From Oceanospirillaceae bacterium (lineage in GTDB: Bacteria > Pseudomonadota > Gammaproteobacteria > Pseudomonadales > Balneatricaceae), in the NCBI GenBank assembly GCA_002686055.1, contig NYZU01000007.1, positions 3,858 to 45,737 on the forward strand: a DNA stretch of 41,880 nucleotides, in the 5' to 3' direction. Of this stretch, positions 9,294 through 25,249 are shown piece after piece. Below the pieces are notes generated by a model. It ran no database searches. It was not told the DNA's origin and was given only the letters and a program-made list of their open reading frames with translations. The translations under genes were made by a program, and so were the position numbers. Positions within the stretch are counted from its first letter, which is position 1, and every line of letters starts with the position of its first letter.

Positions 9294-9306
9294 TTTCTAC
9301 ACATAT

Positions 9307-9334: not shown

Positions 9335-9356
9335 TAATATCGGTAAATACTATGAT

Positions 9357-10403
9357 TTAACGATAGGTGGTTTCTGATTGACCATGGCCTTTCGGCCGCG
9401 CTATACCGCCAATCATATCGCCTAAAGTCACTTTACCAATGGCAGCGCCATCACGGGTAACCGTGGCTTCTGTTACACCAGAATCAGACATCATCGGCAA
9501 GGCGTCTTCTAGTATCATCTTGTGATCTAATGTTAGATCACTAGAGCTAGTGCCTTCTTCCATAACCGCTGACACCTGCAATACCCGAGCTCGGTTTATA
9601 TCCTTGATAAAGTCACGCACATAGTCGTCAGCTGGATTAAGCACAATCTCCTGTGGCGTCCCTTGTTGGATCACTGCCCCATCACGGAGAATAACAATAT
9701 TGTCACCAATGCGCAGAGCCTCATCCAAATCATGGGTAATAAAGATAATGGTTTTATGCAGCTCTTCTTGCAAATCCAGCAAGATATCTTGCATATCGTT
9801 ACGGATCAAAGGGTCCAAAGCCGAGAAAGCTTCATCCATCAAGAGGATTTCTGCATCTGTGGCTAAGGCCCGGGCCAAACCAACCCGTTGCTGCATCCCA
9901 CCTGATAATTGCGCCGGGAAATTAGCTTCAAAACCAGTAAGGCCCACTCGATCGATCCAACGCTGAGCTCGCTCATGCTGCTCTGGCACAGGCAGCTTCT
10001 TAACCTTTAAGCCATAGCATACATTGTCTAGTACCGTCCGATGGGGCAACAAAGCAAATTTTTGAAACACCATAGACATTTTACTGCGACGAAAATCTCT
10101 TAGCTGCTCATCAGACATAGCCAGAACATTTTCACCATCGATTAAGACTTCACCCGAGGTGGGCTCAATCAAACGGTTTAAATGACGAATCAAGGTTGAC
10201 TTACCTGATCCAGACAGCCCCATAATCACTTGAATTTTTCGTGCTGGAATATCGATATTAACATTTGATAAACCCAACACATGCTTGTAGTCATTTAACA
10301 GGTCTGCCTTGCTACAGCCGTTTTCTACATGCTGCACCATGGCTTTGCCATTACTACCAAAGATTTTATATAGATTTTTTATGGAAACCTTAACTTCAGA
10401 CAC
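9357..10403 (-). CDS. proV: Betaine-type ABC transporter ATP-binding protein
   Basis: The ATPase of a ProXWV-type importer. It has Walker A GLSGSGKST, the signature LSGGMQQRVGLARALA and Walker B EILLMDEAFSALDP, then a C-terminal CBS-like regulatory segment from about residue 290, shorter than the paired CBS domains of E. coli ProV. GTG at 10403 is chosen as start because AAGGAGG lies 5 bp before it and the mature sequence then begins VSEVKVSIKNLYKIFG. The longer frame back to 10457 would lie inside proW. It overlaps the proW stop by 8 bp, so the two are translationally coupled. Glycine betaine or a related quaternary or sulfonium osmolyte is the family-typical substrate. Confidence 0.9.
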   Translation of the reverse strand: MSEVKVSIKNLYKIFGSNGKAMVQHVENGCSKADLLNDYKHVLGLSNVNIDIPARKIQVIMGLSGSGKSTLIRHLNRLIEPTSGEVLIDGENVLAMSDEQLRDFRRSKMSMVFQKFALLPHRTVLDNVCYGLKVKKLPVPEQHERAQRWIDRVGLTGFEANFPAQLSGGMQQRVGLARALATDAEILLMDEAFSALDPLIRNDMQDILLDLQEELHKTIIFITHDLDEALRIGDNIVILRDGAVIQQGTPQEIVLNPADDYVRDFIKDINRARVLQVSAVMEEGTSSSDLTLDHKMILEDALPMMSDSGVTEATVTRDGAAIGKVTLGDMIGGIARPKGHGQSETTYR

Positions 10404-11286
10404 CGTGGCCTCCTTGACGGTGCTTCTGCAACCGCTTGCCATATGCTTGAGATACACGATCGAAAATAATCGCTAGGGCGACGATCGCCAAACCATTCAT
10501 TAAGCCTAAAGCTAAATATTGATTAGATATAGCTCGTAAAACCGGCACACCCAACCCTTTAACACCAATCATAGAGGCAATAACTACCATGGCTAAGGCC
10601 ATCATAATAGTTTGGTTTACCCCAGCAAATATATTCGGTAATGCTAATGGAATTTGGACATCAAAAAGTTTTTGTCTAGGGCTAGCACCAAAGGCATCAG
10701 CTGCTTCCAAAACCTCTTTATCCACCAGTCGAATACCTAAATTTGTTAAGCGTACAATGGGCGGTAAAGCGTATACACATACGGCTAGCAACCCAGGTAC
10801 CTTACCAATACCCAATAACATAATAATTGGAATCAAATATACAAAACTCGGTATAGTCTGCATTACATCCAGTATCGGAGTAATCGCCGTCTGCAAACGA
10901 TCAGAGCGCGCCATTAATATCCCTATGGGAATACCAACACCGATACAGACAATGGTTGCCACAGAAATAATAGCCACCGTAGCCATGGTATTTTCCCACA
11001 TACCTAGATAGCCAATAAGTAGGAATGAGGCAATTGTCCCCAACACCAGCCATAGACTACGAGAGCCAAGCCATGCTAAGGCTGCAAATATCAAAATCAT
11101 AAATGGCCATGGAATAGTAAGCATTAACTTTTCCAATCCCACCATAAAATGTAGCAAAGGCTCAAAGAACCCTTCTATACTGTCACCATTAGCACGAGAA
11201 AACTCCCGAAACGACTGGTCAATACCTTTTTTAAGATCACGCAGGTCCTGACGTCCCATTTCCGGAAATTCAGATAGAAAATCCAT
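10396..11286 (-). CDS. proW: Betaine-type ABC transporter permease
   Basis: A 296-residue inner-membrane permease of the ProW/OpuAB family, with the binding-protein-dependent transport signature in the cytoplasmic loop (EAADAFGASPRQKLFDVQIP). The soluble N-terminal ~60 residues before the first membrane segment are typical of ProW. AGGAG lies 6 bp before the ATG. It follows proX after a 148-bp gap that carries a terminator-like hairpin, and overlaps proV. Confidence 0.9.
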   Translation of the reverse strand: MDFLSEFPEMGRQDLRDLKKGIDQSFREFSRANGDSIEGFFEPLLHFMVGLEKLMLTIPWPFMILIFAALAWLGSRSLWLVLGTIASFLLIGYLGMWENTMATVAIISVATIVCIGVGIPIGILMARSDRLQTAITPILDVMQTIPSFVYLIPIIMLLGIGKVPGLLAVCVYALPPIVRLTNLGIRLVDKEVLEAADAFGASPRQKLFDVQIPLALPNIFAGVNQTIMMALAMVVIASMIGVKGLGVPVLRAISNQYLALGLMNGLAIVALAIIFDRVSQAYGKRLQKHRQGGHGV

Positions 11287-11380
11287 GCTTAACTCCTAAT
11301 CTGCAATCATATGCCGCAAGGGCTTATGCAACAGGTTTTTAATTAAATGCCTATAACCATGTAGCCATCAAGTATTTATA

Positions 11381-11413
11381 AAAAAGGCCCAGCAACCAAT
11401 TGGTGTGGGCCTT
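11381..11413 (-). terminator. Hairpin with T-run between proX and proW
   Basis: AAGGCCCA and TGGGCCTT pair around a loop that itself contains the palindrome CCAATTGG. On the minus strand five T residues follow. Placed after proX and before proW, it should reduce transcription into the membrane components and stabilise the proX message, giving excess binding protein. Confidence 0.8.
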
Positions 11414-11434
11414 ATATTTTAATGCCAATCCTAA

Positions 11435-12433
11435 TTATAGAGCAGCTTTGATCTTGGCAGCTGCGTCAGCAGATACCCATGGACCCCAAACATCTTCATG
11501 TTGCTCTAGGAAAGCAAAGGCAGCATCTTCACCAGTAGCTTGGTTGTCATCCATATATACCAACATACCGTTCATAGCAGCACCTGGGAAGGTACGCTTG
11601 CTGAAGTAATCTGCAGCACCGCCATGAGACTTGATCTCATCTGTTACCACAGTGTTTACAACTGACTCAGTCCAAGAGGAAGGTTGTGGATCAGCACATT
11701 CTTGCTCAGGCTTAACAATACAGTTATCCCAGTTGTCAGCACCACCCCACTCAACACCAAAGTCGATAGCTTCTAGACCATAACGACCTGCTAAGGCAGT
11801 TGGTGACCAGTAGTAACCCATCCAGTTATCACCACGCTCAACAGCCTTAGCCACGGAGCCGTCTAGACCAGCAGCAGAACCTGGATCAACCAGTTTCCAA
11901 CCTTTGGCTTCCATATCAAATGCGCGGAATAGGTTAGCCGTAGCTAATTGACAACCCCAACCTGCTGGACAACCAACAAGGGCACCTTTAGAAGGATCTT
12001 CAGCATCTGGGAACAGTTCTGGATGCTCAAGAATATCCATCACAGTTTTGATATTTGGATTGTTAGCAATGAAATAATCAGGCACGAACCAGCCTTCACC
12101 GGCACCAACGATTGGGCCTTCATTCACAACGTGTAAACGGCCTTCAGCTACAGCTGCATTTAGAGGAGTTGCAACAGCGTTAGCCCACAGCTCAGGAGCA
12201 ACCATTGGTTGACCCTTTTCGTTCATAGATGCAAAAGTAGTCATTGTTGCGCCTGGCACCAATTCCACTTCACAACCATAACCTTCTTCTAAAATGATTT
12301 TATCGACATTAGCCATCAACTCGGCAGAGGCCCAGTTCATTTCCGCAATGGTAATTTCACCACAGCTAGCGATGGCACCTTGAGACAGAGCGAATGCACC
12401 TGCAACGGCAACACCTTTTACATACTTATTCAT
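11435..12433 (-). CDS. proX: Betaine-type ABC transporter substrate-binding protein
   Basis: A 332-residue periplasmic protein with a Sec signal peptide (residues 1 to ~22, ending around AIAS) and the OpuAC/ProX fold: ITIAEMNWASAELMANVDKI, PGATMTTF, ELWANAV, and tryptophan-rich segments (GYYWSPTALAG) that in this family build the aromatic cage for quaternary ammonium. AGGAG lies 5 bp before the ATG. It is the first gene of the unit and is followed by an attenuating hairpin. Glycine betaine/proline betaine is the default substrate. Being next to the DHPS module raises, but does not show, the possibility of another osmolyte. Confidence 0.88.
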   Translation of the reverse strand: MNKYVKGVAVAGAFALSQGAIASCGEITIAEMNWASAELMANVDKIILEEGYGCEVELVPGATMTTFASMNEKGQPMVAPELWANAVATPLNAAVAEGRLHVVNEGPIVGAGEGWFVPDYFIANNPNIKTVMDILEHPELFPDAEDPSKGALVGCPAGWGCQLATANLFRAFDMEAKGWKLVDPGSAAGLDGSVAKAVERGDNWMGYYWSPTALAGRYGLEAIDFGVEWGGADNWDNCIVKPEQECADPQPSSWTESVVNTVVTDEIKSHGGAADYFSKRTFPGAAMNGMLVYMDDNQATGEDAAFAFLEQHEDVWGPWVSADAAAKIKAAL

Positions 12434-13171
12434 ACATACTCCTAATTATTGTTTTTATCCAGCCCCAAAAAGAGACGCAAAGAGTATCTACTACATAAGC
12501 TATTTACCAACCTATTGGTTATCAACAGGTATAAAGGTCGCAAGCCAAATTTGCTTACTAACTAAGTTCTAATGCCTACACTCTATTGCGTATTTCAAAG
12601 GGTCTCATATAGATAAAATAAATCAATTATTGATTACGACATAGTATTTAACTAAATACGACATTCATCGAATAAAGTGTCATAAAGCCTACGCCTTCGG
12701 ACAAGGAGACCGGTTATTGAATAACCCTTTGTCCTTCTTCTAGCATAACAATTGCTTTCATAAAAAACAAAGGAATACGTAAAATACTCAAATAAATAGA
12801 AAAACTATTTTTATCAGACAGATAGTAATACTTTTTAACCCACTGAGATCATTAATTAAACCGCAAAGCATTAAGAGTTTAATGCATATACATTGTAAAA
12901 AATCAGATCCACCTGATATGTATTAAATTCGCAGATCAGCAGATTAGGGGGTTTGTTGCTAATTATGTATGCCGACTAGGCAAAAAATAACGTGAAGTTG
13001 AAGGGCGTTTAATTGAAGCTGAGTACTAGTCCAGAGTATCTGTATTTTAGCCATCATCTTCAAGGGCAAGTTAACCGGCTAGCCGCAAAAGAATATCCTA
13101 ATGGTGTATATCTTCTAATGGCTAACCGCTTAATTTATAGTGACCAAATAACAGTGGCACTTAAGCCGCTG
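12434..13171. other. 738-bp gene-free region between nirD and proX
   Basis: I find no supportable gene here. It must hold the proX promoter (minus strand). Two structures stand out: the palindrome ACCAACCTATTGGT at 12506-12519, a possible operator about 75-85 bp upstream of proX, and the nested inverted repeat at 12699-12734. The 3' end of nirD and the first bases beyond it form an imperfect inverted repeat (13144-13179) without a T-run. The rest is AT-rich and unremarkable. Confidence 0.6.
12699..12734. repeat. Nested inverted repeat of unknown role upstream of proX
   Basis: GGACAAGG and CCTTTGTCC form an outer stem around GGTTATTGAATAACC, a perfect 7-bp inner stem. No T-run follows on either strand, so a simple terminator is unlikely. 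It lies about 265 bp upstream of proX and downstream of nirD on the same strand; it could be part of a leader RNA or a protein site. Confidence 0.5.
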
Positions 13172-13501
13172 CTATTTGGCTTCAAGGACAACCATATTAT
13201 CAATAACCTGAGTTTTATATACGGGAATGGATACAGTTTCATCCTCAAGACACTGACCTGTCTGCAGATTAAAATGCTGCTTATACATCGGCGAAGCAAC
13301 GGTAACTTGATCATCTAATTGCGCCATCAAACCCCGCGATAATACATTTGCGTCACTAAATGGGTCATAATTACCAATGGCATAAATTTGGTCACTTTCC
13401 GCCTCGCGAAATACCGCCACTTGTTGCTCATTGATTTTCGCACACACACCGCTATTGGGGACAATATCGTCTAATGCACATACTTTGATCCAAGTCATCA
13501 T
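13172..13501 (-). CDS. nirD: Nitrite reductase [NAD(P)H] small subunit
   Basis: The 109-residue small subunit of assimilatory NADH-nitrite reductase, with a Rieske-like fold. It is recognisable by WIKVCALDDIVPNSGVCAKI, VAVFREAESDQIYAI and NYDPFSDANVLSRG. The length is normal. It begins 8 bp after nirB, with AGGAG before the ATG, and completes the nirBD unit that reduces nitrite to ammonium in the cytoplasm. Confidence 0.95.
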   Translation of the reverse strand: MMTWIKVCALDDIVPNSGVCAKINEQQVAVFREAESDQIYAIGNYDPFSDANVLSRGLMAQLDDQVTVASPMYKQHFNLQTGQCLEDETVSIPVYKTQVIDNMVVLEAK

Positions 13502-13509
13502 ATTCTCCT

Positions 13510-16062
13510 TTAGCCTGCTTTGGCGATTAAATGAGCTCTTTCATCAACCGTCGCCGGACGCGGCTGACCCCGTTCCGAAACATAAACAAGATTTTCGTCA
13601 CTATCAGGGGAGTTAATAAAGTGAGAGAAACGCTTCAGCTTTTCTGGATCTTCGATAGTGGTTGCCCACTCACACTGATAATTTTCGATATTAAGCAGCA
13701 TTTCTTTCTCGAGCTCATTAACAATACCCAAACTGTCATCGATAATAACTTCGCGTAAATAATCCAAACCACCTTCCATATTTTCCATCCATACGGAGGT
13801 TCTTTGCAGTCGATCAGCGGTACGTATATAGAACATCATTAATCTATCAATATATTGAATTAATGTTTCCCGATCTAAATCTGTCGCGAACAGATCACCA
13901 TGCCTTGGCTTCATGCCGCCATTACCACAGACATATAAGTTCCAACCATTTTCTGTGGCTATAACACCAAAGTCTTTGGACTGGGCTTCAGCACATTCGC
14001 GCGTACAACCAGATACCGCAAACTTTATTTTGTGCGGGGCACGGACACCTTTATAACGATTCTCAATATCGATCGCCAAACCAACAGAGTCATCTACGCC
14101 ATAACGACACCAGGTACTACCCACACATGATTTTACCGTCCGCACTGACTTGCCATAGGCCTGGCCTGTTTCAAATCCAGCCGCAACCAAACGCCGCCAA
14201 ATATCTGGCAACTGATGTAGTCGCGCACCAAACAGGTCAACCCTTTGGCCACCTGTAATTTTGGTATAGAGATTAAAATCACGGGCTACTTCACCCAGTA
14301 TAATAAGTTTTTCCGGGGTAATTTCACCACCGGCAACCCGAGGCACAACAGAATAAGTACCATCTTTTTGAATATTGCCTAAATAGGCATCGTTGGTATC
14401 TTGGAGACCGACATGCTGGTCTTTTAGCACATACTCATTCCAGCAACTAGCTAAAATCGAACCAATGGCTGGCTTACAAATCTCACAGCCTTGGCCTTGG
14501 CCATACTTTTCTAACATTTCGCTAAAGGTTTTAATGCCTTCGACCCGAATCAAATGATAAATCTCTTGGCGGGTATAAGGGAAATGTTCACAAATATCAC
14601 GATTTACCTCAACGCCAAGGGCCTCCAGTTCATGATTCACCACACTGGTCATTAAGGGCACACAACCACCACAACCAGTACCGGCTTTGGTATCGCTTTT
14701 TACGTCACCAACAGAACAGCAACCAGACTTCACTGAGGCGCTGATATCCCCTTTACTGACATCATGACAGGAACAAATTTGCGCCGTTTCTGGTAACGCA
14801 TCAACACCTAGACCACCGACATCTTCACCCATACTCGGCAGAATTAATGATTCGGGACTAGCAGGTAAAGCAATACTATTTAAACAATATTGCAGCAAGG
14901 TACCGTATTCTTCGGCATCACCAACTAAAACTGCACCTATTACATGTTTACCATCAGGACTGACGACTAGTTTTTTATAAACACCATTGGGGTCATTTTT
15001 GTAGGTATAACATTGCGCACCGGGAGTAGCCGCATGGGCATCGCCAATGGACGCAACATCAACCCCCATAAGCTTTAACTTGGTACTCATATCAGCACCT
15101 GAGAAAGGCACTTCATTACCAACAAGGTGGGCGACAGCGGTTTTCGCCATAGCATAACCTGGCGCTACCAAGCCAAATATACGTTCTTGCCACAGGGCAC
15201 ATTCACCAATGGCGTAAACATCTTTATCTGAGGTTTGGCAATGATCATTGATCATTATTCCACCACGAGGGCCGACATCCAGCTCACTGTCACGAGCTAA
15301 GGCGTCTTGGGGACGAATACCAGCAGAAAACAAGACTAAATCTGTTTCTAATTCTGTACCATCGGCAAATTCCAACTTGTGAATGGATGCTTCACCATCA
15401 GTAATACAATTTGTGGCTTTAGATAGGTGAACACTTACCCCAAGCTCTTCAATTTTCTTTTTCAGCAGGGCGCCGCCATCATCATCAACTTGCACTGCCA
15501 TTAAACGTGGGGCAAATTCCACCACATGAGTTTCTAAGCCTAAATCTTTTAAGGCTTTGGCTGCTTCTAGACCCAATAATCCACCACCAATAACAACGCC
15601 TTTTTTAGCCCCGCTAGTAGCTGCTTGGGTAATATCTTCTAAATCTTCAATGGTGCGGTAAACAAAGCAATTTTGTCGATCATTACCAGTAATAGGTGGT
15701 ACAAAGGGATAGGAACCGGTGGCTAAAACAAGCTTATCGTAACTAACCGTAAGCCCTTTCGTGGAGGTTACGGTTTTCGCCCCACGATCTATGCTCTCAA
15801 CACGATCATGCAAATATACTTTTACCCCTGCTGTAGCGTAACTTTGTGGGTCGGCGAGGCTTAAGTCATCGGCATTACGGTTAACAAAATATTCACTTAA
15901 ATGAACACGATCGTAGGCCAGTCTGGGTTCTTCGCTAAAGGTATGTATTTCAAATTGATCTGTATTTTCGCTGGCCAAAAGTGACTCGATAAATTGATGG
16001 CCAACCATTCCATTACCTACGACTACCACCTTCGTTGTGCTTATAGTTGTAGCAAGACTCAT
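13510..16062 (-). CDS. nirB: Nitrite reductase [NAD(P)H] large subunit
   Basis: An 850-residue siroheme nitrite reductase that reduces nitrite to ammonium. Domains in order are: FAD/NAD oxidoreductase (VVVVGNGMVGHQF at the N-terminus, VVIGGGLLGLEAAKAL near residue 150); a BFD-type [2Fe-2S] segment (CSCHDVSKGD, then GTGCGGCVP); a second cysteine cluster (GQGCEICKP); and the C-terminal siroheme/[4Fe-4S] half with CVGSTWCRYG and GCTRECAEA supplying the four cluster cysteines. The length is typical of NirB. The start at 16062 has GAGGGG about 10 bp upstream. A sigma-54 promoter and an attenuator-like leader precede it. Confidence 0.96.
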   Translation of the reverse strand: MSLATTISTTKVVVVGNGMVGHQFIESLLASENTDQFEIHTFSEEPRLAYDRVHLSEYFVNRNADDLSLADPQSYATAGVKVYLHDRVESIDRGAKTVTSTKGLTVSYDKLVLATGSYPFVPPITGNDRQNCFVYRTIEDLEDITQAATSGAKKGVVIGGGLLGLEAAKALKDLGLETHVVEFAPRLMAVQVDDDGGALLKKKIEELGVSVHLSKATNCITDGEASIHKLEFADGTELETDLVLFSAGIRPQDALARDSELDVGPRGGIMINDHCQTSDKDVYAIGECALWQERIFGLVAPGYAMAKTAVAHLVGNEVPFSGADMSTKLKLMGVDVASIGDAHAATPGAQCYTYKNDPNGVYKKLVVSPDGKHVIGAVLVGDAEEYGTLLQYCLNSIALPASPESLILPSMGEDVGGLGVDALPETAQICSCHDVSKGDISASVKSGCCSVGDVKSDTKAGTGCGGCVPLMTSVVNHELEALGVEVNRDICEHFPYTRQEIYHLIRVEGIKTFSEMLEKYGQGQGCEICKPAIGSILASCWNEYVLKDQHVGLQDTNDAYLGNIQKDGTYSVVPRVAGGEITPEKLIILGEVARDFNLYTKITGGQRVDLFGARLHQLPDIWRRLVAAGFETGQAYGKSVRTVKSCVGSTWCRYGVDDSVGLAIDIENRYKGVRAPHKIKFAVSGCTRECAEAQSKDFGVIATENGWNLYVCGNGGMKPRHGDLFATDLDRETLIQYIDRLMMFYIRTADRLQRTSVWMENMEGGLDYLREVIIDDSLGIVNELEKEMLLNIENYQCEWATTIEDPEKLKRFSHFINSPDSDENLVYVSERGQPRPATVDERAHLIAKAG

Positions 16063-16100
16063 CTAGAGAAACCCCTCTCATTTATAAAAACAGCGCCCAC

Positions 16101-16130
16101 AAAAAAAACCGATCACATTGCTGTGATCGG
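16101..16130 (-). terminator. Leader terminator (attenuator) in front of nirB
   Basis: A perfect 9-bp stem, CCGATCACA/TGTGATCGG, with a 4-nt loop, followed on the minus strand by eight T residues. It lies between the nirB sigma-54 promoter and the nirB start, so it would abort nirBD transcription unless antiterminated. It could also be read as the end of nasR, but it lies downstream of the predicted nirB start site. Confidence 0.85.
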
Positions 16131-16132
16131 AG

Positions 16133-16144
16133 GACGTCGTTGTC
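16133..16144 (-). promoter_or_regulatory. Candidate ANTAR (NasR) RNA hairpin, nirB leader
   Basis: On the minus strand GAC-AACGAC-GTC forms a 3-bp stem with a hexaloop having A at position 1 and G at position 4, as in ANTAR-bound RNA. It ends 2 nt before the terminator stem. The same arrangement occurs in front of nasF and nasA. Confidence 0.55.
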
Positions 16145-16169
16145 TTGGATTATGATTCACCTAATATAA

Positions 16170-16185
16170 TGCAAGCCACATGCCA
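16170..16185 (-). promoter_or_regulatory. Sigma-54 promoter of nirBD
   Basis: The minus strand reads TGGCATGTGGCTTGCA, with GG and GC 10 bp apart: one mismatch to the TGGCACGN4TTGCA consensus. Transcription should start near 16159, giving a leader of about 97 nt that contains the hairpin and terminator. Confidence 0.8.
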
Positions 16186-16289
16186 AAAAACATAAAGGCA
16201 TATAAAACAAACAATTAGGGAAATAAATTTTTTTTAACCAGCCATACACGCACTTTGTTTGCTCACGGGTGGACAGATACACTATCTAG

Positions 16290-16306
16290 CGCCCGATTTT
16301 AGTGCA
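16290..16306. promoter_or_regulatory. Possible NtrC site upstream of nirB
   Basis: CGCCCGATTTTAGTGCA matches about 13 of 17 positions of the NtrC consensus TGCACYW4TGGTGCA. It lies 131-147 bp upstream of the predicted nirB start, a typical enhancer distance and close to that of the site upstream of nasF. The match is imperfect. Confidence 0.4.
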
Positions 16307-17530
16307 TTATGGCTTATGCTTTTTGAAAGTTTCGATAATTCTTTGTGCCATCACTTGTACTGGCACTTGCTGCTGCATCGCACTTTGTTGTAACTGACGA
16401 TGAGCAGAAGCTTCATCTAATTTTAGATTTTCTTGCAGAATCGCTTTGGCCTGCTCAGTTAATTTACGTATTTTTAAAGCATCACGGGCAGACTTAAGAT
16501 CCGCTTCCAAGATATCAATTTTTTTACGTTGATCGTGCAATACCTTATATATTGGATGTGAAGGATTGGATACGGACAGAGTTACGTCGCTATTTATAGC
16601 TAGGGATAATTGCTTTTCAATAGTCTTATTATTTTGCAAGGCAGACTTAATGCGCTCATCACAAAGAACTTGTAACTCATGCAATGATGCCTGCTCAATA
16701 ATATGCAGCTGATCCATATAATCCGTTGCCTTGGTGTACCATTCTTCGGCAATTTGCGGATCAATATCAGCTTTGCTAAACAACTTATTACGCACGTCTC
16801 TTAGGCGATTTAAGACTTCATGTTGTGGGCCTTTTATCAGGGCTGAAAATCTTGCTTGTTGATCATCCGTCGCGGTTTGTTGAAAACCCTCAAAGACTTC
16901 ATCAATTTTCTCAGTGAGTTGTTTTAATCGCTCTTGTAGACGTTCAACAAAATAACCACGGGCAAAACCTATGGCGGTCCAGCCACGTTCTTGTGCGACT
17001 AATTCTTTGCCTTGAATAAGATGGAATAGCGCACTTAAGGCACGGGTTAATTTAGGGTCCGATGCTAGATAGGCCACTTCAAATATAACTTGAATTAGCT
17101 TTTCAATAATCCAACTTAATTCCTGAGTAGAATCGGCTGGCTGAATGGCGAAGGTTTTTATCCGTTCCCGCAAACCATATATAGCATCAATTGCCCAAAA
17201 TGCCTCGCCCACAGCATTGAGTAGTGCCGGGCTAATCACATCTTTTTGGGACTGCTCGTAAAGGGATTGGAAAGCCTGGCGAAACTCAGTAATAGCCTTA
17301 TCTGAAAGCTGCGCTTGATCAAACAAAGTATATTGTTTGGACTTATCTTGGGTAACTAGGTAAATATTGCTAAGGCCACGCTCATGCTGCAAGTTATAAA
17401 TTAACTCACTAATTAACGCCACCCACTGTAGGCTGAGTTTTAGATTATTCAGGTTGTAGGTTTCCGCATGTTTCGCAGCGATAACAAAATGTCGCGCAGA
17501 AATTTGGGAAGAAGCCTGTTGCTTACTCAT
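16307..17530 (-). CDS. nasR: Nitrate/nitrite-responsive antiterminator NasR (NIT + ANTAR)
   Basis: A cytoplasmic RNA-binding regulator. Residues from about 20 to 270 (WVALISELIYNLQHERGLSN at the front) match the all-helical nitrate/nitrite-sensing NIT domain. The last ~55 residues (LTEQAKAILQENLKLDEASA then VMAQRIIETF) are an ANTAR domain, which binds hexaloop hairpins and prevents intrinsic termination. I place the start at the ATG at 17530 (407 residues), with AAGG just upstream; the longer frame to 17590 adds an unlikely hydrophobic tail. It lies between nasC and nirB. Three leader terminators in this window are its obvious targets. Confidence 0.93.
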   Translation of the reverse strand: MSKQQASSQISARHFVIAAKHAETYNLNNLKLSLQWVALISELIYNLQHERGLSNIYLVTQDKSKQYTLFDQAQLSDKAITEFRQAFQSLYEQSQKDVISPALLNAVGEAFWAIDAIYGLRERIKTFAIQPADSTQELSWIIEKLIQVIFEVAYLASDPKLTRALSALFHLIQGKELVAQERGWTAIGFARGYFVERLQERLKQLTEKIDEVFEGFQQTATDDQQARFSALIKGPQHEVLNRLRDVRNKLFSKADIDPQIAEEWYTKATDYMDQLHIIEQASLHELQVLCDERIKSALQNNKTIEKQLSLAINSDVTLSVSNPSHPIYKVLHDQRKKIDILEADLKSARDALKIRKLTEQAKAILQENLKLDEASAHRQLQQSAMQQQVPVQVMAQRIIETFKKHKP

Positions 17531-17654
17531 AAAGCCTTCAATTTGGTAATACAAATAATATCTTGGTAACAAGACGCCATTGGCGTACAAGAATAAAGGT
17601 TATCTTTTGAGCTGAATTTTGGCAATGCTTTCGTGATTAGTCACACTAATACAC

Positions 17655-17660
17655 ATTATA
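17655..17660 (-). promoter_or_regulatory. Possible -10 element of a nasR promoter
   Basis: A perfect TATAAT on the minus strand in the 172-bp gap between nasC and nasR, with no good -35. It would allow nasR expression independent of the attenuated nasFEDC transcript, which is needed if NasR is to be present before induction. Weak evidence. Confidence 0.3.
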
Positions 17661-17702
17661 AAATAGGACAAATAGGGACGATTGTTTATGCTTTAAAGAT
17701 AA

Positions 17703-18926
17703 TTAGCCAAAAGCGAGGCTCTGGGATGCCTGAGCATTTACTGGGTCGGTGGCTTGGAATAGTTCACTTACTTGTGGACTCATAGTGGTATTACCAAACA
17801 GGATGGCACCCACTAGTTGCCCTTCCGCATACCAGAAGCGCCGGTATTCCTGTTGCTCTGCATCAAGATAATAGGCTGTTTCATCGGTAGCCGAGATATC
17901 GCCACAAGAATAAAGATCAATACCACTGATTTTAAGTTGCGTGGCGATGGGCTTATCTTGGTAGTTTGCTATTTGGCCTGCCAATCTTGCGGCCAACACC
18001 TTACATTGATCCCAAATAGGGGCTACCAGACCATATGTATTGCCCTCAAATTCAATACATTCACCCACAGCATAAATATTGTTATCCGAGGTTTGCATAC
18101 CTGCATCAACTAAAATGCCTTTATTAGTCGCCATACCCGATACTTTAGCAAGCTCACTATTGGGCGTAATGCCTAAGGCAAATACCACCAAGTCAGCATT
18201 GAGCTGGGTATCATTGTCTAAAGTTACTGAGGTCACTCTGCCTGCTGGCGCATGGATATGCTTGATGGTCGAATTGGTTTTTATATCTAAGCCACGTTGC
18301 TCTAAGACTTGTCTTAATAAGTTACTGGCACTGGCATCTAACTGTCGGTTTAGCAAGTAGTCTGAACGGTGTAACAAGGTTACTGCCATACCCAATTTTC
18401 TTAACCCTTCAGCTGCTTCCAAGCCAAGAAAACCACCACCTACAACGATCGCTTGCTTAGCTTGTAAAGCGGTTTGCTGCATTAACTCAACGTCGCGAGT
18501 ATTACGAAAGGTCATTACCCCTTCGGCATCCCTATTTTCAAGGCTGGGCTTGACGGGACTTGCGCCCGTTGCGAAAACAAGTTTTTGATATTGGTAACGG
18601 GTGCCCTGATCATCTTCAATCCAACATTTATGACGATTAATCTGTAGCACTCGTCGACCCACAATTTGCTTGGTAACAGCAAGTATAGCGTTAGGCAAAG
18701 TCAACTCTATTTGCTCAGGTGGAATTTCCTCAGCTAATAAAGGCGACAACATGATGCGATTATAGGCAGGGCGTTGTTCTTCACCAACAACAGCAATCGA
18801 ACTCGGTATATGGCCATGACTGGCAAGGTCACATAGCAGCCTATGGGCTGCCGGACCATTACCAATCACAATCAGTTCAAAGTGTTTGTGGCTGTCAACT
18901 TTAGGCAGAGACTTGTTTAGGCTCAT
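17703..18926 (-). CDS. nasC: FAD/NAD(P)-dependent reductase, electron donor to nitrate reductase (NasC-like)
   Basis: A 407-residue pyridine nucleotide-disulfide-type reductase resembling the N-terminal half of NirB. The FAD-binding motif is VIGNGPAAHRLL (about residues 21-32), the NAD-binding motif is VVGGGFLGLEAAEGL, and the second FAD motif is NIYAVGECIEF. In Klebsiella nasFEDCBA the nasC product passes NADH electrons to the NasA catalytic subunit. Position after nasD supports the same role, although nasA itself is divergent here. The start overlaps nasD by 26 bp, suggesting translational coupling. A role as an additional nitrite reductase flavoprotein cannot be excluded. Confidence 0.8.
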   Translation of the reverse strand: MSLNKSLPKVDSHKHFELIVIGNGPAAHRLLCDLASHGHIPSSIAVVGEEQRPAYNRIMLSPLLAEEIPPEQIELTLPNAILAVTKQIVGRRVLQINRHKCWIEDDQGTRYQYQKLVFATGASPVKPSLENRDAEGVMTFRNTRDVELMQQTALQAKQAIVVGGGFLGLEAAEGLRKLGMAVTLLHRSDYLLNRQLDASASNLLRQVLEQRGLDIKTNSTIKHIHAPAGRVTSVTLDNDTQLNADLVVFALGITPNSELAKVSGMATNKGILVDAGMQTSDNNIYAVGECIEFEGNTYGLVAPIWDQCKVLAARLAGQIANYQDKPIATQLKISGIDLYSCGDISATDETAYYLDAEQQEYRRFWYAEGQLVGAILFGNTTMSPQVSELFQATDPVNAQASQSLAFG

Positions 18927-19767
18927 CAGCTTTACTAGCCACTTTGGAGAGATTAGTTTGGGCCGGATTAATCGGCTCTACCTTTTTTTGCTTTTCGTAC
19001 AGGAAGGAAAGTACTTGCTGACGGTAACTGTTGTATTTCTCATGATCTGCAAGAGCAATACGGTCCCTTGGGCGCTCCAGTTCAATATCCAGTACTTCAC
19101 CAACTGTAGCTGATGGACCATTGGTCATCATCACTATACGATCGGACAAGAGTACAGCTTCATCCACATCATGGGTGATCATAATAACTGTATTACCCAA
19201 AGTGGCCTGAATCTCCATAAGCGAGTCCTGCAGATGGGCTCGGGTCAAGGCATCGAGAGCGCCAAACGGCTCGTCCATAAGTAACACACTGGGCTCCATC
19301 GCTAACGCTCGAGCAATACCCACACGCTGTTTCATACCACCAGATATTTCATCGGGGCGTTTATCCAAGGCGTGTGACATATGCACTAAGCTAAGGTTGT
19401 GCTCAATCCATTCTTTCATTTCGGCTTTTGATTTCTTGCCTTTAAATACCTGTTTTACAGCCAGTTCAACATTTTGGTAAGTTGTTAACCATGGCAGCAA
19501 AGAATGGTTCTGAAACACAACTGCCCTTTCTGGGCCAGGCTCGGTCACCACTTTTGAATCAAGGAGAACACCACCTTTGGTGGCTTGATACAGCCCTGCA
19601 ACAATATTGAGGACTGTCGACTTACCACAACCAGAGTGGCCAATAAGGGAGATAAATTCACCCTTTTTAATCTTTAAATTGACATTATCGAGTGCCTGAA
19701 AAGGCCCATTAGGCGTTGGGAACTCGATTGAGACACCGCTTATTTCTAGGTGAGCTTTGCTATTCAT
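18901..19767 (-). CDS. nasD: Nitrate ABC transporter ATP-binding protein
   Basis: A 288-residue ABC ATPase of the NrtD/SsuB/TauB group, with Walker A GHSGCGKST, signature ISGGMKQRVGIARALA and Walker B VLLMDEPFGALD. It lacks the C-terminal NrtA-like extension seen in NrtC. Lying directly after the permease and binding-protein genes, it energises nitrate/nitrite import. The C-terminal ~40 residues beyond the conserved core are low-complexity and charged. Confidence 0.92.
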   Translation of the reverse strand: MNSKAHLEISGVSIEFPTPNGPFQALDNVNLKIKKGEFISLIGHSGCGKSTVLNIVAGLYQATKGGVLLDSKVVTEPGPERAVVFQNHSLLPWLTTYQNVELAVKQVFKGKKSKAEMKEWIEHNLSLVHMSHALDKRPDEISGGMKQRVGIARALAMEPSVLLMDEPFGALDALTRAHLQDSLMEIQATLGNTVIMITHDVDEAVLLSDRIVMMTNGPSATVGEVLDIELERPRDRIALADHEKYNSYRQQVLSFLYEKQKKVEPINPAQTNLSKVASKADEPKQVSA

Positions 19768-19777
19768 AACTAATTCC

Positions 19778-20773
19778 TCAACGTGCTACCGATGTTTTAT
19801 CCCATGACAACCAACGTTGTAGCATTAACATCATGCGATCCAAACAAAATCCAATTAGACCAATGACTACCACGGCAACCATAATGCGACCCAATGAGTT
19901 GGAGCTACCATTCTGGAACTCGTCCCACACAAACTTACCAAGCCCAGGGTTTTGCGCGAGCATTTCTGCGGCAATCAATACCATCCAAGCAATACCTAAA
20001 GACAAGCGCATACCGGTAAAAATCATGGGAACGGATGAAGGTAAGACAATTTTAAGCACATGGGTCAACCAATTAAGGCGTAGTACTTGTGATACATTCT
20101 GTAAATCACTGCTAATGCTTGATACCCCAACGGAAGTATTCAACAGTGTCGGCCATAGACAACAGAGACTGACCGTTATCAAAGAAGTGATAAAGGATTT
20201 GGCAAACATGGGATCTTCACTAACGTATACCGCACTTACCACCATAGTGACCAAGGGCAGCCAAGCTAGTGGCGATACCGGTTTGAATATTTGAATAATC
20301 GGGTTCAGCGCTGAATTTAACGAGCTACTTAAGCCAATACATATGCCTAATGGCACAGCAATCAGGGTTGCTAGAATAAATCCCGCAAGTACAGTAATTA
20401 GACTCGTACCAATTTGGTCAATAAAAGTGGGTCGACCGTTGTATTCACGCCATTTTACCGGAGCATTTGGATCCTTCGCTAAGCGCTTGGCATTTCGCTC
20501 TTCTTGTCTTTCATAAAAAGCGGTAGCGCGGGCGCGTTCCTCTAAATGCTCAGAAATAAGATTTTGTGATTGTTGCAATACTTCAACAGGGCCTGGAAAT
20601 TTTCCTAATGAAGTGTCAACTTGTTTGGCACCAATATTCCAAATAAGCATAAAAATCACCAAACCAATAATAGGTAAGGCAACGATGCGTAAAAAGTTAT
20701 TAAACTTTTCGTCTAAGTTTTGTAACATGCTTGCACTTTTGTCCGTCTGTAAAGTGAGTTTTGATGTACTCAT
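19778..20773 (-). CDS. nasE: Nitrate ABC transporter permease
   Basis: A 331-residue NrtB/NasE-type permease. The first membrane segment (PIIGLVIFMLIWNIGA) is followed by a long soluble insertion with an EER/KRLAKDP segment characteristic of this family, then four to five further segments and the conserved EAA-type loop. It sits 10 bp upstream of nasD and 41 bp after nasF. Confidence 0.92.
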   Translation of the reverse strand: MSTSKLTLQTDKSASMLQNLDEKFNNFLRIVALPIIGLVIFMLIWNIGAKQVDTSLGKFPGPVEVLQQSQNLISEHLEERARATAFYERQEERNAKRLAKDPNAPVKWREYNGRPTFIDQIGTSLITVLAGFILATLIAVPLGICIGLSSSLNSALNPIIQIFKPVSPLAWLPLVTMVVSAVYVSEDPMFAKSFITSLITVSLCCLWPTLLNTSVGVSSISSDLQNVSQVLRLNWLTHVLKIVLPSSVPMIFTGMRLSLGIAWMVLIAAEMLAQNPGLGKFVWDEFQNGSSNSLGRIMVAVVVIGLIGFCLDRMMLMLQRWLSWDKTSVAR

Positions 20774-20814
20774 AGGGCAACCCCTTGCCCCAGCAGAGCT
20801 GGGGCAATCATAAT

Positions 20815-22188
20815 TTAGATTTGGTCATCACCTTTTAGGCCAATCTCTAGACTTTCTAGATAGGCATTAGGCTGTGTACCATCGAAAACGATACCGTCAA
20901 TAAAATCATCCTGTGGTGGACGGAAACCATCTTCAGTACCGAAGTCTGGGAAATCTTTCGCATCCATTATGCCCTCGTCAATCAGTGACTGGGCAGCAAC
21001 TGCATAGATATCAGGACGGTATACTTTTTTCGCCATCTCCATAAACCATTCGTCGCTCTTAGGCTCTGCAATCTGACCCCAACGACGCATTTGGGATAGA
21101 TACCAAACCGCATCTGAGTAGTATGGATAGGTAGCGTTATAGCGGAAGAATACGTTAAAGTCTGGAACTTCACGCTTATCCCCTTTCTCATATTCAAAGG
21201 TACCCGTCATGGAGTTAGCAATAACGTCATAGTCAGCACCCACGTAATAAGGCTTGGAAAGAATTTCCACCGCTTCTGGGCGGTTAGCGTTATTATTTTC
21301 ATCCAACCAATGAGCAGCGCGAATCATGGCACGCACAACGGCTAGGTGAGTATTGGGGTATTCTTCAGCCCAAGATTTGGAAACACCAAATACCTTCTCT
21401 GGGTTGTTTTTCCAGATTTCATAGTCGGTAATAACCGGTACACCAATACCTTTAAATACAGCCTGCTGGTTCCAAGGTTCACCTACACAATAGCCTGAGA
21501 TAGTGCCAGCTTCCAAAGTGGCGGGCATTTGTGGCGGTGGGGTAACAGATAGCAAAGTATCGGCATCAATTTGTCCTGAGGTGTCACCTTTATGAGGCGC
21601 ATAAAAACCAGGGTGAATACCACCTGCTGCTAACCAGTAACGCAATTCATAGTTGTGCGTGGATACTGGGAATACCATGCCCATATTAAAAGGCTTACCT
21701 TCATCTTTGTATTGCTCAATTACTGGCTTAAGGGCCGTGGAGCTAATTGGGTGAACTGGCTTTCCATCACTGCCCACGGGAATATGTTTCTTCATTTCTT
21801 CCCATACAGAGTTGGATACAGTAATACCATTACCATTTAAGTCCATACTAAAGGCGGTGATAATATCTGCCTGAGTACCGTAACCAATGGTCGCGCCCAA
21901 TGGCTGACCAGCGAGCATATGAGCACCGTCCAACTGACCATCAATTACGCGATCCAGAAGTACTTTCCAGTTGGCTTGGGCTTCCAGCTCAACAAATAAG
22001 CCTTCATCTTCAAAAAACCCTTTTTCGTAGGCAACGGCTAAAGGTGCCATATCTGTCAGTTTGATAAAGCCAAACTTAAGATCTTCTTTTTCCGGATAAC
22101 CGATTTCAGCAAAAGCCGAAGTGGCCAGTGATAAGCATGCGACCAATGAAAATGTCTCTAGTCGCTTGCCAAATTTGTGTAGCTTCAT
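20815..22188 (-). CDS. nasF: Nitrate ABC transporter substrate-binding protein
   Basis: A 457-residue NrtA/NasF-type periplasmic protein, with an N-terminal signal peptide ending near SAFA (residues ~15-27) followed by [32 protein letters not shown] and [17 protein letters not shown], all hallmark segments. The length is typical. AAGGAGC lies 5 bp before the ATG. It is the first gene of nasFEDC; its leader carries a sigma-54 promoter, an ANTAR-type hairpin and an intrinsic terminator. Confidence 0.95.
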
Positions 22189-22203
22189 GTTTAGCTCCTT
22201 AAT

Positions 22204-22264
22204 AAAAAAAATAGGCGCCGCACATAAGGAAAGTGAAGAATGCTTCCCTTATTGTGTAGCGCCT
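22204..22264 (-). terminator. Leader terminator (attenuator) in front of nasF
   Basis: A long hairpin (22213-22264) with end stem AGGCGC/GCGCCT and a nearly continuous upper stem, followed on the minus strand by seven T residues. It ends about 16 nt before nasF, within the untranslated leader, and so is an attenuator rather than the end of a gene. Confidence 0.88.
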
Positions 22265-22269
22265 TTGCT
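22258..22269 (-). promoter_or_regulatory. Candidate ANTAR (NasR) RNA hairpin, nasF leader
   Basis: On the minus strand AGC-AAAGGC-GCT forms a 3-bp stem with a hexaloop having A at position 1 and G at position 4. Its 3' half overlaps the first bases of the terminator stem, so forming one should prevent full formation of the other. A second hairpin, GGTGA/TCACC at 22277-22291, lies just upstream, with a 5-nt loop. Confidence 0.55.
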
Positions 22270-22312
22270 TTTAGTTGGTGAGAGTGTCACCTAAATGTAC
22301 TGTCACATGTAT

Positions 22313-22328
22313 TGCAAATAAGATGCCA
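22313..22328 (-). promoter_or_regulatory. Sigma-54 promoter of nasFEDC
   Basis: The minus strand reads TGGCATCTTATTTGCA, with GG and GC 10 bp apart and two mismatches to the -24/-12 consensus. Transcription should start near 22302, giving a leader of about 114 nt. Confidence 0.8.
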
Positions 22329-22435
22329 TGTTTTAAATTTATATATAAATCAATCAGTTAATTATTTTAAGCTATTTTCTCTAGCCTCTTTACTCAGCCA
22401 TGAGTATCTATAGGCTCCCAATTTTGGAACATCCG

Positions 22436-22452
22436 TGCCCACAAATGGTGCA
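22436..22452. promoter_or_regulatory. NtrC binding site between nasF and nasA
   Basis: TGCCCACAAATGGTGCA has a complete right half-site TGGTGCA and a partly conserved left half relative to TGCACYW4TGGTGCA. It lies between the divergent sigma-54 promoters, about 140 bp from the nasF start and 95 bp from the nasA start, so one enhancer could serve both. Confidence 0.6.
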
Positions 22453-22514
22453 GTAATTGGGCGCCTATTAATTTAAATAACCTATTTAGCCTTGTTTTAG
22501 TAGAAAACTGCAGT

Positions 22515-22530
22515 TGGTGTAAATCTTGCT
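22515..22530 (+). promoter_or_regulatory. Sigma-54 promoter of nasA
   Basis: TGGTGTAAATCTTGCT has GG and GC separated by 10 bp and a full TTGC box at -12. The predicted start is near 22541, about 78 nt upstream of the nasA ATG. Confidence 0.75.
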
Positions 22531-22551
22531 TACAATTAAATAACAATTTTT

Positions 22552-22563
22552 GGCAATGAAGCC
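22552..22563 (+). promoter_or_regulatory. Candidate ANTAR (NasR) RNA hairpin, nasA leader
   Basis: GGC-AATGAA-GCC forms a 3-bp stem with a hexaloop having A at position 1 and G at position 4. Its last two bases are the first two of the terminator stem, so the two structures compete. Confidence 0.55.
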
Positions 22564-22603
22564 TGTTTTACTCTCAAGATTTGGGGGTGGGACAGGTTTT
22601 TTT
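22562..22603 (+). terminator. Leader terminator (attenuator) in front of nasA
   Basis: Positions 22562-22576 pair with 22582-22596 over 15 bp if G-U pairs are allowed (ends CCTGT and ACAGG), followed by TTTTTTTATTTT. It lies wholly within the leader and shows that the upstream in-frame TTG at 22550 is not the nasA start. Confidence 0.8.
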
Positions 22604-22618
22604 ATTTTGAGTAATATA

Positions 22619-25249
22619 ATGACCATTAAGTCGACATGTCCTTATTGTGGTGTTGGTTGCGGCATCACTATAGAACAGCAAACGAATCACATTAGTATTA
22701 TTGGTGATAACAAGCATCCAGCAAACTATGGCAAGTTATGTGTTAAAGGAAGTAACTTGGCCGACACCTTAGGTAAACACGATCGTTTAACTGAGCCCAG
22801 CATCGACGGCCAAGGGACTTCCTGGGATGTCGCTATTGCCAAAATAAGCTCAGCCATTAGTCAGTCTGTAGCTAAATATGGTCCAGACTCCGTGGCTATG
22901 TACCTATCAGGGCAGTTGTTAACGGAAGACTATTACGTCGCCAATAAATTTATGAAGGGCTATATAGGCACAGCCAATGTAGATACCAATTCTCGACTTT
23001 GTATGGCCTCCAGTGTGGTTGGCCATAAACGAGCCTTTGGCGAAGACCTCGTACCGGGTAATTATACGGATTTTGATGCCGCTGAATTGATTGTCTTTGT
23101 TGGCTCAAATGCAGCCTGGAACCATCCCATTATTTATCAGCGTATTTGCCAAGCCAAAAATCGCAATCCTGACCTTAAAGTAGTGGTCATTGACCCTAAA
23201 CAAACCGCCACCGCAGATATCGCTGACCTGCACCTTGCCATTAGGCCAGGTAGTGATAGCCTGCTATTTAATGCTTTATTAGCCTATATTGCCGATTCGA
23301 CTAGCTTTAACCAAGCCTATGTAGATCAGTTTACTAATGGCTTTGAGCAAGCATTAACAACTGCTCAAGAAGATATTTTTGATCAAGCAGACTTGTTAAC
23401 TAAATTAGATATATCCGCTACTGACTTACAGGATTTTCTTGAACTATTTGCTCGTTACGACAAAACGATTACCCTTTACTCACAAGGCATAAATCAATCC
23501 TCCAGTGGTTCAGACAAGGTCAATGCCATTCTTAATTGTCATCTAGCTACTGGGCGCATTGGCAAACCCGGAATGGGACCCCTTTCACTAACTGGTCAGC
23601 CTAATGCCATGGGTGGTCGAGAAGTCGGTGGTCTAGCCAATCAGTTAGCTGCCCATGAGGACTTTAGTGATCCCGTCGGCATACAACGTATTGAAGAGTT
23701 TTGGCAAGCGCCTAATATAGCCAAGACTGAGGGCGCCAAGGCAGTGGATCTTTTTCATGCCCTAGAAACAGGCGCTATCAAAATAGTCTGGATTATGGGC
23801 ACTAATCCAGTGGTCAGCATGCCCAACGCCAATCAGATTAAACGTGCTTTAGCCAAGGCTGACCTTGTCATTGTCTCCGAGTCCATGGCAGCAACAGACA
23901 CCTTGGATTATGCCGATATTGTTTTACCTGCTAGCACATGGAGTGAAAAGCAAGGCACAGTTACCAATTCTGATCGCCTTATTAGCCGCCAACGTGGCTT
24001 TATTCCCCCCCCAGGCCAAGCCAAGCATGATTGGTGGGCTATAGTTGAAGTGGCTCGTCATATGGGTTTTGCCGAGGCCTTTGACTTTACTAGCCCAGCA
24101 GATATTTTCCGCGAGCATGCGGCACTGAGTGGTTTTAAAAACAATGGCCGGCGGCTATTTGATATAAGCGCCTTAGCCACATTAACGGATGCGCAATATG
24201 AAGCTTTAACACCACTCAGATGGCCAGTCACCAGTGCCCATCCAAATGGTTGTGACCACATCCTGAATAATGGCATTTTCCCCACACCTGATAGCCGCGC
24301 GCGTTTTCTTTCCATAAGCCATCGCCAACCAGAGCAACCGCCCAATAAGGCCATGCCCTTTATTCTGAACACCGGGCGAATTCGCGACCAATGGCACACC
24401 ATGACACGTACGGGGCGTGCGGCTAAATTAATGCAACATCGTCGGGAACCCTTTGTGGATATCAATCCAACTGATGCTAAGAAATTATCCATTAAAGAGG
24501 GCCAGTTACTCTGCTTACAACATCAATCACAAGGCACTATTGTTGTGCGGGCACATTTAGACAAGGGGCAACGCCAAGGAGAACTCTTTGTACCCATGCA
24601 CTGGACCGATAGATTTGCCAGTAACGCTCGTATTAATCAATTAATCGAACCCAAAACCGACCCTTTTTCTGGCCAACCTGAATCAAAACAAGGTCGTGTT
24701 GCGATCCAGCCATTTAGAGCCAAAGTCTATGGTACCTTGGTTACAGACAAACCCCTTACTGACGATCAATTAGCTCACTTCACCTATTGGTCTAAAGCCC
24801 CCTTGCCCCAGCACTTTATTTACTATTTTGCTAGTGAGTCTAGGGCTGATGAGTTACATCAATGGAGTGAAGAAATACTTGGTCATCCTACTATAGCCGC
24901 TGGGGACGGGCTATCAGGTGATCAACGCTATGCTTGGATCAAAGATAAGCAATTACAAAGCTTAATGGTGGTGGCTAAAGAAGATGCGTTACCGGATATG
25001 GCTTGGATAGAAGAAATCTTGTTAGCGCCCATAAACAGTGAGAACAGATCCAATATTCTGGCCCTAAAACCGGCTACTGGGGTTGATGCTGGCCCAGTTA
25101 TTTGTAGCTGTTTTCAAGTGCGTAAAGCCCAAATCAATAGTGCCATTGAAAATGGCTGTAAGAGTCTTGAAGCACTGCAAGCAAAACTAAAATGTGGGAC
25201 CAATTGTGGCTCTTGTTTGCCTGAAGTGAAGGGGCTGTTTAACCCATAA
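22619..25249 (+). CDS. nasA: Assimilatory nitrate reductase catalytic subunit
   Basis: A cytoplasmic molybdopterin (bis-MGD) enzyme of 876 residues that reduces nitrate to nitrite. The N-terminal [4Fe-4S] ligands are Cys7, Cys10 and Cys14 (CPYCGVGC) and the Cys of LCVKG. The molybdopterin domains contain SRLCMASSV, GPLSLTGQPNAMGGREVGG and MGTNPVVSMPN. The C-terminus carries a BFD-type [2Fe-2S] domain (CSCFQVRKA, then CGTNCGSCLP), as in Klebsiella NasA. ATG at 22619 is preferred over TTG at 22550 because the intervening bases form a leader terminator and the iron-sulfur motif then sits at the usual distance from the start. It is divergent from nasFEDC. Confidence 0.95.
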   Translation: MTIKSTCPYCGVGCGITIEQQTNHISIIGDNKHPANYGKLCVKGSNLADTLGKHDRLTEPSIDGQGTSWDVAIAKISSAISQSVAKYGPDSVAMYLSGQLLTEDYYVANKFMKGYIGTANVDTNSRLCMASSVVGHKRAFGEDLVPGNYTDFDAAELIVFVGSNAAWNHPIIYQRICQAKNRNPDLKVVVIDPKQTATADIADLHLAIRPGSDSLLFNALLAYIADSTSFNQAYVDQFTNGFEQALTTAQEDIFDQADLLTKLDISATDLQDFLELFARYDKTITLYSQGINQSSSGSDKVNAILNCHLATGRIGKPGMGPLSLTGQPNAMGGREVGGLANQLAAHEDFSDPVGIQRIEEFWQAPNIAKTEGAKAVDLFHALETGAIKIVWIMGTNPVVSMPNANQIKRALAKADLVIVSESMAATDTLDYADIVLPASTWSEKQGTVTNSDRLISRQRGFIPPPGQAKHDWWAIVEVARHMGFAEAFDFTSPADIFREHAALSGFKNNGRRLFDISALATLTDAQYEALTPLRWPVTSAHPNGCDHILNNGIFPTPDSRARFLSISHRQPEQPPNKAMPFILNTGRIRDQWHTMTRTGRAAKLMQHRREPFVDINPTDAKKLSIKEGQLLCLQHQSQGTIVVRAHLDKGQRQGELFVPMHWTDRFASNARINQLIEPKTDPFSGQPESKQGRVAIQPFRAKVYGTLVTDKPLTDDQLAHFTYWSKAPLPQHFIYYFASESRADELHQWSEEILGHPTIAAGDGLSGDQRYAWIKDKQLQSLMVVAKEDALPDMAWIEEILLAPINSENRSNILALKPATGVDAGPVICSCFQVRKAQINSAIENGCKSLEALQAKLKCGTNCGSCLPEVKGLFNP

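Follow-up and report, generated by a model that had tools for sequence, protein, structure and literature searches.

The leader that precedes nirB in the window (the whole 41,880-nucleotide stretch of DNA analysed) is probably a transcription attenuator that responds to the nitrate sensor NasR through a single RNA hexaloop, a reading to which we give a probability of roughly three in four. Judged from the sequence, nirB is very probably expressed under just one combination of conditions, scarce nitrogen with nitrate available. An attenuator of the NasR type is well supported because a NIT-ANTAR gene adjoins the leader, the hexaloop is conserved in relatives and the literature holds precedents. 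Sequence and comparison give the promoter box, the hexaloop, both terminator arms, the domains of NasR and the conservation of this kind of motif, from which we infer a role for NtrC, RNA binding by NasR, the direction of control and antitermination itself.

The leader lies on the minus strand between nasR and nirB, and the elements that the original prediction had placed there, a sigma-54 promoter, a GAC-AACGAC-GTC hexaloop with A1 and G4 and a 9-bp terminator with T8, are all present on that strand. Sigma-54 boxes are defined by a -24 GG and -12 GC consensus, which the nirB promoter box TGGCATGTGGCTTGCA matches exactly; the promoter of nirBD, TGGCATGTGGCTTGC, occupies positions 16171-16185 and sets a predicted transcription start (+1) near 16159. 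A 15-nt 5' segment (16145-16159), in which neither folding nor scanning found a second A1/G4 hairpin or a predicted hairpin of any kind, leads to the ANTAR-type hexaloop hairpin GAC[AACGAC]GTC at 16133-16144 (loop 16141-16136, with A1, A2 and G4 and a C:G closing pair). The inner terminator hairpin, CCGATCACA-GCAA-TGTGATCGG, follows at 16109-16130 with nine base pairs and a GCAA loop, and its T8 tract (16101-16108) leaves 38 bases before nirB, the gene of the large subunit of assimilatory nitrite reductase (13510-16062, minus strand); nirD, encoding 109 residues with a Rieske_2 domain (PF13806), lies downstream of nirB at 13172-13501 on the same strand. The sigma-54 pattern TGGCAYNNNNNTTGCA occurs twice in the window without a mismatch, once ahead of nirB and once ahead of nrtA; with up to two mismatches allowed it has 37 matches against 35.6 expected by chance, so that only the exact ones carry meaning. 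An NtrC-like site at 16290-16306 has two mismatches to the consensus, and such sites are not above chance in the window (13 against 23.4). At the gathering score, the only Rfam match in the window was a tRNA at 41775-41848, with none on the nirB leader; at E up to 10, positions 9000-26000 gave seven sub-threshold matches, including Qrr over the nirB leader (20.3 bits, cut-off 50). Pairing of the 5' end (GUGA-A-UC) with the 5' arm of the terminator was considered as an antiterminator and set aside as weak, the nascent fold being no better than that of shuffles and the duplex being matched by 4.4% of them.

Just upstream of the leader, nasR (16307-17590, minus strand) encodes a regulator with NIT (140.1 bits) and ANTAR (43.9 bits) domains, the only ANTAR match in this draft genome (one genome, 72% complete). 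The protein aligns with K. oxytoca NasR (4AKK) at E 3.2e-31. Among the RNA-contact residues named in the accessible text of PMC7496416 and mapped by alignment, R340 and K347 are kept, and W362, K345, R366 and N373 are changed to H397, Q380, Q401 and Q408, respectively; histidine also stands in the place of W362 in 2 of 11 aligned relatives. Judged from these residues, RNA binding by the NasR of the window is plausible, not assured. The listed TTG start of nasR is probably wrong, as homologues begin near an internal methionine at residue 21. From 17590 to 22188, nrtA, nrtB, nrtD, a reductase gene and nasR all run in one direction, and neither a promoter nor a terminator turned up at the junction of the reductase gene and nasR in a simple scan of 15900-17800; nasR may thus be transcribed from the nrtA promoter, itself NasR-dependent, which would make a positive feedback loop possible. 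The nas cluster (13510-25249) looks foreign to the genus, with horizontal gain the likely origin, because NirB is closer to that of a Motiliproteus genome (L061, 77% identity) than to those of seven genus mates with nirB (57-63%) and because NasR has no match in the 14 other genomes of the genus.

The two other nitrate-assimilation units of the window have comparable leaders. On the minus strand, the nrtA promoter (22314-22328, an exact consensus with a predicted +1 at 22302) precedes a leader at 22204-22269 whose hexaloop, AGC[AAAGGC]GCT at 22269-22258, stands over a long terminator ending in T8 (22211-22204). On the plus strand, the narB leader (22552-22603) has the hexaloop GGC[AATGAA]GCC at 22552-22563 over a terminator with T7 at 22597-22603, downstream of a weak sigma-54 box, TGGTGTAAATCTTGC (22515-22529, predicted +1 at 22541), which has 7 of 11 consensus letters; since all other loci had to score at least 8, this box was admitted by hand to the hexaloop-chosen set of leaders described below and, in the gene-centred scan, through a lower cut for the window. 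An ATG at 22619 is a likelier narB start than the listed TTG at 22550, which falls inside the leader. The original prediction saw in nirB a third attenuator of the same design; all three units do have leaders composed of a sigma-54 box, a hexaloop and a terminator, but the narB box is weak and the hexaloop overlaps the terminator in narB and nrtA, whereas that of nirB is clear of the T8 terminator. The loops AACGAC (nirB), AAAGGC (nrtA) and AATGAA (narB) have A1 and G4, and also A2, in three of three, and the transcribed part of each leader holds one A1/G4 hexaloop, in agreement with the predicted single clear hexaloop per leader. The hexaloop is preceded by 11 nt in narB, 15 nt in nirB and 33 nt in nrtA, none with another A1/G4 hexaloop; nrtA has a 5' stem-loop. 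Dinucleotide shuffling yields such a hexaloop (A1/G4, closed by C-G, 3 bp or more) in 2.5% (nirB), 3.7% (nrtA) and 4.4% (narB) of cases, a modest rarity for any one leader; what counts is that all three leaders have it, where it lies and that relatives share it.

We surveyed relatives in the family of the window, which appears to be the one that includes Amphritea, Nitrincola, Marinobacterium, Motiliproteus and Neptuniibacter. NasR had matches at E 1e-20 in 29 of 116 family genomes, the window's own included (two over partial NasR length; best match in the family 42% identical), and at E 1e-60 none beyond the window among the 389 order and 368 class genomes sampled. The leader DNA had no convincing match in the 14 genus mates, and no close homologue of it was found; the hexaloop conservation proposed as a check proved favourable for nas leaders in general. 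We scanned NasR and nirB loci for a sigma-54 box (at least 9 letters) combined with a hairpin of the form C-hexaloop-G, whatever its loop, and with a T6 terminator that begins within or next to this hairpin; 77 elements were returned, 65 of them (two of which should be the window's own nirB and nrtA) with A1/G4; A occupied loop position 2, which was not selected for, in all 65. In a looser set of 87 leaders, left after removal of a chance match in L123 from 88, position 2 was A in 85 and T in 2. Both sets include nirB loci from family members in which NasR has no match, and the leaders of the looser set, being chosen by their hexaloop, cannot speak to its presence, which only the 77-element scan and a gene-centred scan address. 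The latter, in which a hexaloop was not required, covered 125 nas gene starts, 69 without and 56 with a sigma-54 box and a terminator by the thresholds used; an A1/G4 hexaloop was found in 54 of the 56, or 51 of 53 without the three leaders of the window, in counts from which only identical sequences were removed, so that related strains enter more than once. Among the 54, 37 had only a hexaloop overlapping the terminator, 15 had that and an upstream one, and 2 were scored as non-overlapping: the nirB leader of the window and L227, which was scored on a second, downstream terminator and whose fold shows an overlapping one. The two scored as hexaloop-less, the nrtA leaders of L131 and L134, carry the G1 variants GACGGC and GAAGGT. 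Hexaloops with G1 over a terminator occur in L131, L134, L188 and L093, as in GGAC[GACGGC]GTCC.

In the genus itself, all four mates with both an ANTAR gene and nirB have, some 54-68 nt upstream of the extrapolated start of nirB, AGAC[AAAGAC]GTCT or GAC[AAAGAC]GTC, and a strict A1/G4 hexaloop before nirB was absent from all three with nirB but no ANTAR match. Their ANTAR genes are short (frames of 182-224 aa) and presumably NasT-like. In the stretch examined, none of the four has a run of T5 or longer after the hexaloop, so what they carry is not the attenuator of the nirB leader of the window. In four genus mates with the short ANTAR gene (L207-L210), AGC[AAAGGC]GCT and a T7 terminator also follow the ANTAR domain at a distance of some 40-50 nt, presumably ahead of the next gene. 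In L101 and L107, the 0.8 kb or so that follows nirB contains two and three hexaloop terminators, respectively, of the form TGGC[AATGGC]G on the minus strand, perhaps serial ANTAR attenuators.

These comparisons bear on one rival explanation, an ordinary terminator of nasR joined by a chance hexaloop, with no regulation at all. The hexaloop alone does arise in 2.5% of shuffles, and the terminator, the sole terminator-like site in a scan of 15900-17800, is no more than shuffles give (1.7). However, it lies between a sigma-54 promoter and nirB, 38 bases short of the gene, the hexaloop recurs in three of three leaders of the window and in 51 of 53 others with a sigma-54 box and a terminator, and the outer arm described below matches relatives; we regard this explanation as very improbable.

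The interval originally proposed, 16101-16185, holds the promoter, the hexaloop and the T8 hairpin but stops short of a further arm. Just 3' of T8, GTGGGCGCTGTTTTT (16100-16086) aligns with the terminator 3' arm of relatives, GTGGACGCCGTTTTTTTT in L061 and GTGGGCGC in L082, L083 and L087. This 3' arm of an outer terminator, GTGGGCGCTG with T5 (16086-16100, minus strand), was placed by alignment with L061, folds and pair probabilities; in the fold it pairs with 16141-16132, across the hexaloop, and encloses the inner T8 hairpin, such that AACG.CGUCC pairs with GGGCG.UGUU around that hairpin in a leader folded to 16086. When the nirB leader was cut at its first T-run, the closing pair of the hexaloop had a probability of 0.925; the 86 remaining leaders, likewise truncated at their own T-runs, gave 0.001 or less. 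With the outer arm included (fold to 16086), the nirB value fell to 0.0017. Exclusion of the terminator by the hexaloop is thus absent for T8 and present for the outer arm, and the modelled nirB leader has two nested terminators, an inner one at T8 that can coexist with the hexaloop and an outer one that cannot. A nirB leader wholly without such exclusion was rejected as an artefact of the T6-or-longer requirement and of the cut at T8, since the L061 alignment and the folds reveal the outer arm. The pairing of that arm is equalled in 23.7% of shuffles of its own letters, because these are G-rich, and by 28 of 2094 10-mers of the window, and its homology to the arm in relatives is the stronger argument. 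Extra runs of T5 or longer in or just after the terminator occur in 4 of 56 leaders, nirB among them; the other three have no preceding hairpin better than -5.0 kcal/mol, which leaves nirB alone among the 56 with a full terminator nested in an overlapping one. Tandem terminators are mentioned in none of the 15 papers listed out of 85 from a literature search that covered few subscription journals, and we make no claim that nested ANTAR terminators are unpublished.

The same architecture could be that of a half-decayed attenuator, in which the hexaloop and outer arm would be remnants, the inner T8 hairpin would terminate regardless of NasR, and nirB would live on leaky read-through under sigma-54 control only. 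The nesting peculiar to nirB among 56 leaders, the short outer U-tract (T5, two of them paired in the model) and the lack of competition between inner hairpin and hexaloop are what such decay might leave. But the A1, A2 and G4 of the loop, its C:G closing pair and most of the outer-arm complementarity are retained, and the switches of narB and nrtA, in this very genome, still overlap in the normal way, which presumably means that NasR is active. We therefore consider decay rather unlikely and keep to a working NasR attenuator.

Whether a single hexaloop suffices for such an attenuator bears on the original suggestion of a minimal ANTAR target, which gained ground: outside the window, 35 of 53 leaders carry just the hexaloop overlapping the terminator, and the 11 and 15 nt before the narB and nirB hexaloops hold no second one. 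Leaders with a single hexaloop are not confined to this genome. An additional A1/G4 hexaloop further upstream was found in 11 of the 87 hexaloop-chosen leaders with C-G closing (1.9 in shuffles), in 19 of 87 with any Watson-Crick closing (6.3 in shuffles) and in 15 of 53 in the gene-centred set (4.4 expected), the last count using 53 of the 56 leaders, without L227 and the nrtA leaders of L131 and L134. The upstream hexaloop (P1) is real, but a minority among these leaders. Ahead of the hexaloop, the 5' segment shows more structure than its shuffles (mean z -1.77; below -1 in 39 of the 50 leaders long enough for the comparison), and of its 101 predicted hairpin loops 74 have 3 to 5 nt and 18 have 6 nt, 8 of these 18 being A1/G4; in these folds, a 5' stem-loop without an ANTAR loop looks like the common state, and such a hairpin could contact the second NasR subunit. 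Only 6 of 87 leaders lack a predicted 5' hairpin, namely narB and nirB of the window, three of Marinospirillum celere (L123) and one of L088, and the shortest 5' segments of the 87 are those of narB (11 nt) and nirB (15 nt). The leader of L061, whose NirB is the most similar (77%), has both P1 and P2, and P1 was probably lost on the way to the nirB leader of the window, although this is one comparison with its direction unproven.

A second ANTAR site might still lie hidden upstream of nirB, through a more 5' start or a non-canonical hairpin serving as P1. The upstream hexaloops in 15 of 53 leaders, the nirB leader of L061 included, lend this some credit, as does possible read-through from nasR, which runs in the same direction as nirB. 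Against it, the exact sigma-54 box sets +1 at 16159, the 16145-16159 segment is devoid of an A1/G4 hairpin and narB has only 11 nt before its hexaloop. A dual target in nirB was rejected, as no second Watson-Crick-closed A1/G4 hairpin exists between +1 and the hexaloop, and a hidden site seems to us quite improbable beside a single-hexaloop attenuator.

According to the accessible text of the papers compared here, the ANTAR RNA motif of PMC3369931 has two hexaloop hairpins of at least 3 bp each, an arrangement not found in the leaders of the window, all three of which have its A1 and G4 loop letters; GAC[AACGAC]GTC agrees with the single hexaloop of PMC8934654 and with the C:G closing of the NasR SELEX (PMC7496416), and nasR encodes the combination of an ANTAR and a nitrate-sensing NIT domain. 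The nirB leader is thus outside the dual-hairpin definition of 2012 and inside the single-hexaloop view of 2022. In K. oxytoca nasF, where antitermination by NasR is established (PMC3369931, PMC7496416), a NIT-ANTAR regulator of nitrate assimilation, an A1/G4 hexaloop, an intrinsic terminator and nitrate as the expected signal are shared with the window, whereas NasR there controls one operon through a two-hairpin motif (P1P2) and here would face three units with one hexaloop each, the T8 terminator of nirB, unlike nasF, being clear of the hexaloop. For purified NasR, binding to one hairpin was some twelvefold weaker than binding to a pair (about 12 and 1 uM, respectively; PMC7496416), and EutV induction was ablated by deletion of P1, with P1 and P2 both needed at eutP (PMC3369931). 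The EutV RNAs share A1/G4 hexaloops with the window (PMC3369931, PMC8934654), but the eut leaders have two in four of four and those of the window one each (PMC3369931). PMC8934654, published in 2022 and the sole match found in our literature search for ANTAR and a single hexaloop, redefines the minimal ANTAR motif as one hexaloop and asks for more bioinformatic work on single-hexaloop sites. The Pseudomonas nirBD leader (NalA) is under NasT, sigma-54 and NtrC control (review PMC12830290, citing Nie 2024 and Romeo 2012); it combines the same gene with sigma-54/NtrC initiation and ANTAR antitermination, so that the two-key logic is not new, but its regulator is NasS-NasT in place of a one-component NasR, and nested terminators are not mentioned for it in the accessible text of that review.

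On the reading that we prefer, nitrogen limitation would have sigma-54 RNA polymerase, presumably activated by NtrC, start at about 16159. Without nitrate, the 9-bp hairpin would form and transcription would stop in T8 (16108-16101). With nitrate, GAC-AACGAC-GTC, the one hexaloop available, would be bound by a NasR dimer; it lies about 15 nt past the start, and two bases separate it from the terminator hairpin. Bound at the mouth of the RNA exit channel, NasR would hinder closure of the inner hairpin and would also stop the outer arm (16100-16086) from pairing across the hexaloop, allowing read-through into nirBD. Relief of the inner hairpin is the weakest step, because that hairpin and the hexaloop do not compete by pairing.

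For ANTAR proteins at large, the choice between one and two hexaloops is contested, the 2012 model and the NasR affinities favouring two and the 2022 EutV structure favouring one. We tentatively suggest, as a possibility that we hold to be less probable than its converse, that NasR-type leaders of marine gammaproteobacteria mostly have one hexaloop, with narB and nirB (and Marinospirillum) reduced to a bare hexaloop near the 5' end, that a NasR dimer may antiterminate from a single site, and that nirB may be a two-stage gate in which the bound protein blocks the inner terminator without base-pair competition. The leaders of the window would provide naturally occurring single-site targets, in two of which a second site would hardly fit, and since the hexaloop and terminator of nirB can coexist, competition by pairing and steric blocking would be distinguishable there.
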